From positions 1 through 41,835 of the forward strand of contig JAGVZA010000024.1 in NCBI GenBank assembly GCA_018302985.1: 41,835 bases of DNA. The letters are read 5' to 3'. Source of the DNA: Candidatus Woesearchaeota archaeon. GTDB lineage: Archaea > Nanobdellota > Nanobdellia > SCGC-AAA011-G17 > UBA489. The notes beneath the pieces were generated by a model. The model saw only the letters and a list, made by a program, of their open reading frames with translations, had not been told where the DNA came from and did not search any database. Numbering within the stretch: position 1 is the stretch's first letter; each line of letters begins with the position of its first letter. Positions 9,049 to 21,585 of this stretch are shown one piece after another. A program made the position numbers and the translations under genes.

Positions 9049-10017
9049 TTAAGCCATATATTTTCCTTCTTCCCTATAGACTAAACGAACAAGATTGCGA
9101 ATAAGGACTACCGTCGTCTTAAGACGTTCATACGCTGAAAATAAGTAAGGATCCTTGCATCTTTTAAGAGCAGCATTGCACATATCTAGAACTTTTTCAC
9201 GTTCTCTAGCAAGAAGATATGCAAGACTTTCATCATGAGTATAGATAGATTTCATAACTTCAAGATAAAGCTTATGAATTTTCTCAAAAATAGAAAAATA
9301 ATCTGGCAGTTTTTTAGCAGTCTGTCCTGACTGTAAGATACTTCTACCAATACGTTTAATCTCATCACCTATGAGCTCTAATTGTTGGATTATTTCTCTA
9401 TAGAACAAAAGCTGGGAAGTATTCATTTCTAATCGTTTTGCAAGAGGAGGATATGCAATGCACTTTTTAACGATACGTTCAGAAAGATAAGCTAGGCGAT
9501 TGATGTCTTTATCTCTGCGAAGTAAATCAGAAGAATCATCTTCCAAGGAAAGGTTTTGAAGATCTTCAAACATAGAACGCAAAATAGTGTCAATTCGCCT
9601 TACAATGGTCTTAAAAGAGATTTCTGAAGGGTTAAGAAAATCTTTGGCGACAATCTTATTTTTTGTTTGTTCTATAATTTCCAAAGCCATCAAGTTATTG
9701 AGTAAAGCACGAATAAAAGTTTGTTTTTCACGAAGTGTTTTTTCTCCTTGGAGAATAAAAGTGTCATACCCAGCAAGATATTTGGATGTCACGCGACGTT
9801 CAATATCCGTCTCATCAAAAGAATCAATATCGAGAGTAATAGTTAAAGACTCTGGCCCAGTTTCTTCTATCTTAGAGGTAAGAACAATTTCATTATTGCT
9901 GTTCTCATTCATGTAAATCATATCACCTTTTTCCAAATTATTTTTTTTCAGCCAGTCTTTTGGAATGGATACTACATAAGAACTATTGCCAAATTTGATG
10001 AGTCGTCTATAATCCAT
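9049..10017 (-). CDS. AbrB-domain plus PhoU-domain regulator
   Basis: The N-terminal 45 residues (MDYRRLIKFGNSSYVVSIPK start, then KDWLKKNNLEKGD) form a SpoVT/AbrB swapped-hairpin DNA-binding domain. Residues about 125-320 form helical PhoU-like bundles with ERIVKKCIAYPP and EIIQQLELIGDEI. Archaeal proteins of this architecture are annotated as PhoU-like phosphate uptake regulators. I chose ATG 10017 rather than the upstream in-frame start at 10092: it follows a GGGGG ribosome-binding site by about seven bases, the AbrB domain begins exactly there, and the TATA element overlaps the longer start. No phosphate transporter is in the window. It diverges from the acidic small-protein gene. Confidence 0.8.
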   Translation of the reverse strand: MDYRRLIKFGNSSYVVSIPKDWLKKNNLEKGDMIYMNENSNNEIVLTSKIEETGPESLTITLDIDSFDETDIERRVTSKYLAGYDTFILQGEKTLREKQTFIRALLNNLMALEIIEQTKNKIVAKDFLNPSEISFKTIVRRIDTILRSMFEDLQNLSLEDDSSDLLRRDKDINRLAYLSERIVKKCIAYPPLAKRLEMNTSQLLFYREIIQQLELIGDEIKRIGRSILQSGQTAKKLPDYFSIFEKIHKLYLEVMKSIYTHDESLAYLLAREREKVLDMCNAALKRCKDPYLFSAYERLKTTVVLIRNLVRLVYREEGKYMA

Positions 10018-10095
10018 GCATATTCCCCCAAATGAATATAGTTTCAAAATATTTTCTGAAAGTATATCCTTGATATATAGAATATCAGACACCTA

Positions 10096-10103
10096 TATAT
10101 AAA
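10096..10103. promoter_or_regulatory. TATA element shared by two divergent genes
   Basis: TATATAAA on the plus strand reads as TTTATATA on the minus strand, so one element could serve both directions. Leftward it predicts a start near 10071 and a leader of about 54 bases for the AbrB-PhoU gene. Rightward it predicts a start near 10125 and a leader of about 33 bases for the acidic gene at 10158. No second good TATA box is seen between the two genes. AbrB-type proteins often regulate their own promoters, so autoregulation affecting both sides is plausible inference. Confidence 0.5.
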
Positions 10104-10157
10104 TCTATCTCCTATATCCCTCTATCAAAGAAATCACCGAACAGGGGGGTGGAGTCA

Positions 10158-10325
10158 ATGACTATAAAAAATGAAAAATTAGAACGTGGCGAAAGCGAGT
10201 TATTTGACGAGCTCGACGACGACTTTTATAGCGAAGAGGAAATCGGATCTTTATTAGAAGACGATGAAATCTCAGATGAAGAAGAAGCCTTTATGGTTGG
10301 TTACATGGGCTTTGATGAGGGATAA
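10158..10325 (+). CDS. Small highly acidic protein with an EEAFMVGY motif
   Basis: A 55-residue protein with 22 Asp/Glu and only three basic residues. It is preceded by a strong G-rich ribosome-binding site (GGGGGGTGGAG ending about four bases before ATG). After an acidic body it ends with EEEAFMVGYMGFDEG. The motif E-(A/G)-F-M-x-G-Y recurs in the 91-residue protein at 21310-21585, where it is followed in the same chain by a Cys-pair zinc motif. Here the zinc module is instead the next gene, one base after this stop. I do not know its function. The acidity and partner suggest a protein or nucleic-acid-mimic interaction role, which is speculation. Confidence 0.62.
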   Translation: MTIKNEKLERGESELFDELDDDFYSEEEIGSLLEDDEISDEEEAFMVGYMGFDEG

Positions 10326-10326
10326 G

Positions 10327-10470
10327 ATGGGCAAATACAGAAGGTGCCTAACCTGCATGTCACCAGTAATGAAAAGCGCTCGTTCGAATCCATATATGTG
10401 TAGGGAATGTGAGCGAGAAACTGGAAAAGAAGTAGTTGTGCCAATCTATCACCGACAATTTGAAGGATAA
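10327..10470 (+). CDS. Small zinc-ribbon protein
   Basis: A 47-residue basic protein with two CxxC pairs (C7, C10 and C25, C28) spaced as in a zinc ribbon. The start at ATG 10327 is preferred over an in-frame upstream ATG at 10264, because the latter lies inside the acidic gene and the motif begins here, with GAGG about six bases upstream at 10317-10320. It follows the acidic gene with one base between stop and start, so the two are translationally coupled. Such ribbons bind nucleic acid or partner proteins; nothing more specific can be read. The isolated T-loop-like GTTCGAATCC inside it is coding coincidence. Confidence 0.65.
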   Translation: MGKYRRCLTCMSPVMKSARSNPYMCRECERETGKEVVVPIYHRQFEG

Positions 10471-10471
10471 C

Positions 10472-10576
10472 ATGCAACAAGATAAACTAAATAGCAAGAA
10501 AGAAGCGCTGAAAAAAAGAAGGAATGTTGGGGAAAAACCTTTATATCCTATAGATATAGAAATTATTCACGAGTAA
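10472..10576 (+). CDS. Possible small basic peptide downstream of the zinc ribbon
   Basis: A 34-codon open frame starts one base after the zinc-ribbon stop, with GAAGGA four bases before its ATG. It is Lys/Arg-rich in the middle (KKEALKKRR) and ends by overlapping the convergent Hsp20-like gene by 14 bases. If real it would complete an acidic / zinc-ribbon / basic trio. The short length and lack of a recognisable motif make this only a candidate. Confidence 0.25.
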   Translation: MQQDKLNSKKEALKKRRNVGEKPLYPIDIEIIHE

Positions 10577-20818: not shown

Positions 20819-21313
20819 ATGAAAATCTACGGATTTTTGGTTATGTTTGTACTAGGATTAATTGCTGGAATAGTCTTTGTAGCCTATTTTCCGCAAGAAA
20901 AGATAGAAATACCTCTGCTTACAGAACAACGAGAATCTGCCATTCTAGCACCTAAAGACCGCATTGATGATAAAAATATCCACGTATTTAATGACCGTAT
21001 AGAAATCGATCTCAAGGACTTGCAGGGAAGAAAAGTATCTTGGTCTACCTTTGCTGACACTGAGTCTATGGTGCCAACTTTGGATCAAGGATGTAATGGC
21101 TTAGAATTTATTCCTAAGTCTACTCAAGATCTCCACATAGGAGATATGATTGCTTTTGAACAAAATAAGCGATTGATTATCCATCGTATTCAAAAAACTG
21201 GTCAAGATAAAGACGGTTGGTTTGCAATTACTAAAGGAGATAATAATGAATATACTGATGGAAAGGTAAGTTGGTCAGAAATTAAATATGTTACTTTTGG
21301 TATTATCTGTTAA
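20819..21313 (+). CDS. Signal peptidase I-like membrane protease (archaeal/ER type)
   Basis: A 164-residue protein with one N-terminal membrane segment (residues 5-23). The SPase I boxes are visible: SMVPTL with nucleophile Ser83, IIHRI with His122 where bacterial enzymes carry Lys, and GDNN ... D at 140-147. The Ser-His-Asp arrangement marks the archaeal/ER Sec11 group that removes signal peptides outside the cell. It is somewhat divergent and has a long linker between the TM segment and box B, so it could be a specialised peptidase. It is followed convergently by the acidic zinc protein (four-base overlap) and lies near a block of exported proteins. Confidence 0.75.
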   Translation: MKIYGFLVMFVLGLIAGIVFVAYFPQEKIEIPLLTEQRESAILAPKDRIDDKNIHVFNDRIEIDLKDLQGRKVSWSTFADTESMVPTLDQGCNGLEFIPKSTQDLHIGDMIAFEQNKRLIIHRIQKTGQDKDGWFAITKGDNNEYTDGKVSWSEIKYVTFGIIC

Positions 21314-21585
21314 AGTTTAGATAATTTTTTCTCTTCATATTCGTTTAAGCATTCTTGTGAGCAAAATTTATGTTTTTCATCATCAAACTCTTCTTCTATG
21401 CCATCGCCTTCAATCATCTTTTTGCAATTAGCGCATTTGATGACAACTTCGCTGTCATTATAACCCTTCATGAAGCCTTCATCTACATCATCTAGTTCAT
21501 CTTCATCTTCTAGAAGTTCTTCCGGATCAGAATAGACATCATCATCTTTTTCTTCTATTCCTACCGTATCATCGTCCTCTCCCAT
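21310..21585 (-). CDS. Acidic protein with FMKGY motif fused to a TRASH/MYM-like zinc finger
   Basis: A 91-residue protein. The first 45 residues are strongly acidic and end in DEGFMKGYNDSE. The rest is a zinc finger with C51, C54, C75 and C79, in which HKFCSQEC resembles L24e/TRASH/MYM fingers. The motif E-G-F-M-K-G-Y matches the end of the 55-residue acidic protein at 10158-10325, whose neighbour is a separate zinc ribbon. This gene therefore appears to carry both modules in one chain. A TATA-like sequence near 21609-21616 would give a nearly leaderless transcript. Function unknown. Confidence 0.65.
   Translation of the reverse strand: MGEDDDTVGIEEKDDDVYSDPEELLEDEDELDDVDEGFMKGYNDSEVVIKCANCKKMIEGDGIEEEFDDEKHKFCSQECLNEYEEKKLSKL

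Follow-up and report, generated by a model that had tools for sequence, protein, structure and literature searches.

The window analysed here is a stretch of 41,835 nucleotides from a Candidatus Woesearchaeota archaeon (contig JAGVZA010000024.1). At two places in it, a short acidic protein segment is found next to paired cysteines: at positions 10158-10470 the two are encoded by adjoining genes, and at 21310-21585, on the opposite strand, they are joined in a single chain. This arrangement raises the question of whether one protein has been split at the first locus and fused at the second or one acidic module is used separately at each, and of what such a module might do. The original prediction had described a 55-residue acidic open reading frame, a cysteine-pair protein beginning one base later and a 91-residue minus-strand fusion, and all three were found as described. 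The C-terminus of the acidic protein, which had been read as ...EEAFMVGYMG, is actually ...EEEAFMVGYMGFDEG.

One acidic module beside two zinc modules

The stand-alone gene (10158-10325, plus strand) starts at an ATG, with an in-frame GTG lying upstream at 10149, and encodes a 55-aa microprotein composed of an acidic tail and a predicted hairpin with the signature FMxGY. The hairpin core, as delimited by alignment A1 and AlphaFold, comprises residues 22-49 (DFYSEEEIGSLLEDDEISDEEEAFMVGY; 10221-10304). One base past the TAA of this gene begins the open reading frame of the ribbon partner (10327-10470, plus strand), a 47-aa putative C4 zinc-ribbon protein (C-x2-C-x14-C-x2-C-E) identified by alignment A4, synteny and coding selection. 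The fused protein (91 aa; 21310-21585, minus strand) carries its hairpin core at residues 16-42 (DVYSDPEELLEDEDELDDVDEGFMKGY; 21460-21540), recognized through alignment A2 and the profile match to A1, and a TRASH/FCS treble-clef finger with its core at residues 51-79 (C-x2-C-x20-C-x3-C; 21349-21435), recognized through Pfam and A2. When orthologues from the window's genome (G000) and genome G002 were compared, dN/dS was 0.18 for the hairpin gene, 0.10 for the ribbon and 0.04 for the fusion. That all three are under purifying selection, and that their protein homologues extend well outside the genus, shows them to be real genes.

Stand-alone and fused members of the family were aligned separately (A1, 58 stand-alone members; A2, 17 fused members). 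The shared module spans about 34 residues and reads D(I/V)Y-x-E-E-x3-E-L-L-E-(D/N)-D-E-I-S-x2-E-E-(G/A)-F-M-x-G-Y; the consensus common to A1 and A2 is D(I/V)Y-x-E-E-G-R-E-E-L-(L/V)-E-(D/N)-D-E-I-S-P-E-E-E-(G/A)-F-M-x-G-Y. In both alignments the motif G is invariant or nearly so, and F, M, Y, D and E are near-invariant; the flanking tails vary. When the two independently built profiles were compared, they aligned at 97.9% probability with an E-value of 5.3e-13, so that the stand-alone and fused proteins have this module in common. Moreover, E(A/G)FMxGY arose in none of 100,000 shuffles of either window protein, and the shared motif on which the original prediction rested is thus real. A broader pattern, acidic residues plus F(MLIVA)x(GA)Y, was present in 135 of 180 family genes (themselves selected by similarity to the same hairpin profile) versus 0.165 expected by shuffling, and was absent from 255,995 aa of unrelated neighbouring proteins. 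Chance or low-complexity similarity of the two hairpins was ruled out by the profile comparison and the shuffles.

In the fused protein, the C-terminal half belongs by score to the TRASH, zf-FCS and YHS treble-clef fingers (PF06467, PF24273, PF04945), with matches to zf-FCS (3.1e-8; 33.7 bits, cut-off 22.4) and TRASH_HVO_1752_C (2.6e-7; 31.1 bits, cut-off 27). Unlike known TRASH/FCS proteins, it bears an N-terminal FMxGY hairpin that had no match in any family library used. Four predicted zinc-ligand cysteines are present (C51, C54, C75 and C79), and C51, C54 and F74-C75-S76 are invariant in A2. In the ribbon, C7, C10, C25, C28 and E29 are invariant in 12 aligned orthologues (A4). We infer from sequence that both the ribbon and the finger bind zinc. 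At six other loci (L117, L118, L119, L122, L123 and L124) the fused finger seems to keep its fold without the zinc cysteines, with KDALTGEPL and FVSEENA in place of the Cys pairs.

The proposal that the loci hold split and fused versions of one protein did not survive. The cysteine spacings of ribbon and fusion finger differ, the A4 and A2 profiles of the two gave no alignment by hhalign (probability 4.5%), and the split pair and the fusion coexist in the same genome; fission or fusion of one gene was ruled out on the last two grounds. Given that the zinc modules are, by profile comparison, unrelated, one hairpin has been combined with different zinc modules. The doubt raised at the outset, that the zinc modules might be unrelated and unlinked to the motif elsewhere, was therefore borne out in its first half; the modules are unrelated, yet each pairing recurs. 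Searching for the motif beyond the two loci revealed that it is conserved and linked to zinc cysteines, in fused and in adjacent forms, in many genomes. The wider idea, of a functional link between the acidic module and zinc modules in at least two arrangements, stands.

Predicted fold and distribution of the hairpin family

When the 55-aa protein was modelled by AlphaFold together with 57 relatives, a two-helix hairpin was predicted, with helices at residues 26-34 and 40-54. Mean pLDDT was 96 for residues 31-40 and 89 for residues 41-50, and the acidic N-terminal tail was disordered and of low confidence. The fused 91-aa form was modelled poorly: mean pLDDT was 65.8, and the hairpin region was left unfolded at values below 60. 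Certain family proteins are only 32-37 aa long and consist of nothing but the hairpin, which argues that the hairpin by itself is a functional unit.

The hairpin profile had no match in a sequence search of the PDB, and Foldseek searches with the hairpin model found no significant match in the PDB or among viral models. Among low-rmsd shape matches were a phage Short C-terminal domain (SHOCT) protein (0.8 A over 28 columns, E 5.8) and an XkdX protein (0.5 A over 25 columns, E >5). Like SHOCT (PF09851) and SHOCT-like_DUF2089-C (PF22746), the hairpin is about 30 aa long, comprises a pair of short helices and an (E)I(S/T)xxE turn, and is attached to many different domains, zinc ribbons included; the two-helix fold that characterizes SHOCT is seen in the predicted 55-aa structure, as a matter of shape only. 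Unlike SHOCT, it is strongly acidic, has its own FMxGY signature, and is often N-terminal or the entire protein. No hairpin protein matched PF09851 at cut-off, hhalign of the hairpin against a small comparison set of four (three local SHOCT proteins and a SHOCT-like protein) gave a probability of 0.1, and PF22746 gave weak scores in 4 of 58 members (best, 0.0084). SHOCT membership was ruled out by these profile results, and the hairpin, as predicted, resembles SHOCT in shape without being a SHOCT member. True SHOCT proteins are present elsewhere in the window's genome. For SHOCT itself, a role in oligomerisation was tested and none was seen, and its authors suggested binding to something else (PMC3581485).

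Of 61 genomes searched with the 55-aa protein (60 relatives and the window's own), 55 had a match at E up to 1. Across the phylum, sampled evenly at 194 genomes, 154 genomes had matches to the A1 profile, with one to eight copies each, and 126 had matches to the A2 profile at E 1e-5; in about 75 of the 194, as counted from match coverage, the A2 match spanned both hairpin and finger. Neither Pfam nor NCBIfam contains a family covering the hairpin. The supposition that these proteins form an undescribed small-protein family was thereby upheld. A tighter motif scan of 84,980 species genomes yielded 87 confirmed relatives; the 80 of these that were listed come from DPANN, Woesearchaeota, Nanoarchaeota or Nanoarchaeia MAGs, except for a few labelled "archaeon" or "Euryarchaeota archaeon", which are placed by label only. 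On this taxonomy, drawn from a scan with one strict peptide pattern, the family looks restricted to the nanoarchaeal lineage. Literature searches combining DPANN with microproteins, Woesearchaeota with TRASH domain, or Pacearchaeota with small acidic protein returned no match. Taken together, the existence of an undescribed, lineage-wide microprotein family and the boundaries of its modules are well supported.

Gene neighbourhoods of the hairpin

Divergent to the hairpin gene lies a regulator of 322 aa from its conserved start (9052-10017, minus strand; longest open reading frame, 9049-10092), with an AbrB/MazE-type DNA-binding domain (PF04014; 5.3e-9, 36.3 bits) and a PhoU domain (PF01895; 1e-5, 26.2 bits), both above cut-off. 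A PDB sequence search with this regulator gave no match. The 140 bases between the two genes (10018-10157) contain a TATA-like CTATATATAAATC, common to G002 and nearly so in G001, as well as weak, imperfect inverted repeats, and are probably a shared promoter region. Ahead of the hairpin ATG lies a G-rich, Shine-Dalgarno-like run; the ribbon ATG is preceded by GAGG, which falls within the end of the hairpin gene. Hairpin and ribbon are probably made from one translationally coupled mini-operon (10158-10470), which the AbrB-PhoU regulator probably controls.

Families with a ribbon gene downstream of such a hairpin are f1, f11, f14, f17 and f20, all from the window's order, and f57, from a different one, so that the pair occurs in at least six families and at least two orders. 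For the split pair, this conserved adjacency on a shared strand suggests that the two modules act together, as had been proposed for both loci. The pairing is not obligatory: family f21 has the ribbon beside the regulator yet shows no clear hairpin there, apart from a diverged one at locus L273, and f23 carries its ribbon at another place in the genome. In being a tiny one-domain zinc protein, the ribbon is like the CPxCG-related small zinc finger proteins, defined by at least one CPxCG, CPxCx or CxxCG half, a second Cys/His pair 7-40 residues away, and a length below 100 aa. The window ribbon departs from them in that neither of its halves (CLTCM and CRECE) is strictly CPxCG-like, it is accompanied by a conserved acidic hairpin, and the regulator is of the AbrB-PhoU type; several orthologues do carry CxxCG (e.g., CISCG, CINCG). 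Halobacterium offers a useful parallel: small zinc finger genes accompany its Bat-type regulators or Bat homologues, and Brz controls bop transcription (PMC2253796).

When the window was compared with its counterpart in G002 (L047), the hairpin and ribbon coding regions were 81.5% and 83.3% identical, respectively, versus 100% for the regulator, 98.6% for the intergenic region and 94-97% for the downstream genes. This peak of divergence, exactly over hairpin and ribbon, suggests rapid change or recombination of a cassette. Directly after the ribbon, a 34-aa open reading frame (10472-10576; MQQDKLNSKKEALKKRRN...) is conserved in G002 and was not found in G001.

By locus, 180 distinct hairpin genes were classified; these are a non-random sample, and the numbers are counts rather than frequencies. 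In type A, which includes the window's 10158 gene, 39 hairpin genes lie one or two genes from a divergent AbrB/MazE-PhoU regulator, 36 of them immediately adjacent. Type B is made up of 33 genes located downstream of a Cdc6-like AAA+ ATPase (Cdc6_lid, 1.1e-11), with a calcineurin-like metallophosphoesterase next in 20 of the 33; bare-hairpin paralogues of 32-60 aa are encoded between this ATPase and the metallophosphoesterase. Type C consists of the hairpin-TRASH/FCS fusions, seven of which lie immediately upstream of another metallophosphoesterase paralogue, distinct from that of type B. A further 23 stand-alone hairpins, type D, are encoded next to tRNA synthetases, which by sequence are for the most part ThrRS-like, with some ArgRS. 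Across types, a same-strand metallophosphoesterase follows 29 of the 180 hairpin genes, and most family members are without a zinc module. In L116 (2246-3637), the hairpin is in frame at the N-terminus of a SecF-like membrane protein, also named from sequence. A long branch (length 1.69, support 100/100) divides the two metallophosphoesterase groups, and genomes G023 and G049 each have both paralogues with a hairpin gene immediately upstream of each; the hairpin-metallophosphoesterase pairing therefore arose, or was kept, twice. A PDB sequence search with the metallophosphoesterase gave no match. Homology, selection on coding sequence, recurrent architectures and synteny are established for the family.

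Several further features were seen at individual loci. Seven type D members (L191, L210, L212, L218, L220, L226 and L229) have long Lys/Ala/Pro-rich, histone-H1-like tails and a second short motif, DxYxxAF, several with a terminal FLxRLF-type segment. In L088 (1285-1638) and L090, a conserved gene of about 118 aa (MAVLITSISTGKGTW...) without a Pfam match lies upstream of the Cdc6-like ATPase. A hairpin gene divergent to a multi-helix membrane protein of about 230 aa is a recurrent context (L050, L086, L087).

Possible roles of the hairpin

Hydrophobic residues conserved on a strongly acidic hairpin, together with its tiny size and many different attachments, point to a docking element, which would bind a partner in trans and bring an attached or co-expressed function to it. 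Of the roles considered we regard this as the likeliest, at about even odds. In the predicted hairpin, the conserved Tyr, Leu, Ile, Phe-Met and Gly-Tyr would provide both packing and a contact face. Type A would draw its zinc ribbon in trans, from the operon that encodes the hairpin, and type C would have the different, unrelated TRASH/FCS finger in cis. The partner might be the neighbouring regulator (in the window, the AbrB-PhoU protein) or phosphoesterase, or a common hub. Against a docking role stand the non-significant E-values of the structure matches, the poor model of the fused form, and the non-obligatory pairing of hairpin and ribbon. A wider form of the proposal, that the hairpin is a nanoarchaea-specific docking tag plugging ribbons, TRASH fingers, Lys-rich and SecF-like proteins and bare micropeptides into one hub, is possible and is put forward tentatively, given that no one neighbour (metallophosphoesterase, AbrB-PhoU or Cdc6-like) is common to all members.

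Dispensing with a common hub altogether, the hairpin could instead be a regulatory subunit of its operon neighbours, namely the AbrB-PhoU regulator in type A and the metallophosphoesterase in types B and C. The 36 of 180 genes immediately divergent to AbrB-PhoU, the 29 upstream of a same-strand metallophosphoesterase, and the pairing with two separate paralogues of the latter are in keeping with this; we consider it doubtful, given that many members, the window's fused gene included, have neither neighbour and that conservation of the FMxGY face from one context to the next suggests a common contact. Two-helix hairpins can form four-helix bundles by pairing, and several hairpin paralogues coexist per genome, so that a self-association module, assembling its own carriers or mixing paralogues, might be envisaged. 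This is unlikely, since a highly acidic surface disfavours homo-oligomers and the look-alike SHOCT domain showed no oligomerisation when tested (PMC3581485). Two tiny adjoining genes beside a gene of the MazE/AbrB fold, with both coding regions unusually diverged between G000 and G002, also recall a toxin-antitoxin-like or anti-regulator pair. Such a pair is very improbable here: the chromosomal position is conserved across families and orders, several hairpin paralogues occur without a ribbon, and no known toxin signature was found. The view that both acidic segments are unstructured tails of coincidentally similar low-complexity sequence draws on their very acidic composition and the low model confidence of the N-terminal tails; it is refuted by the conservation data (profile-profile E 5e-13, the shuffle test, the invariant G and the near-invariant F, M and Y), and the high model confidence in the hairpin core also speaks against it.

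Archaeal lineage-defining protein families are mostly without known function (PMC9258230). Proteins of 32-60 aa tend to be missed in annotation, and the hairpin profile makes those of this family findable. With its sharp signature, predicted fold, often multiple copies per genome and conserved neighbours (an AbrB-PhoU regulator, a phosphoesterase and an ATPase resembling replication initiators), the family offers a practical entry point for studying regulation in archaea with very small genomes. If the hairpin does serve as a docking tag for one hub, it would point to a hidden regulatory network in most members of the phylum.
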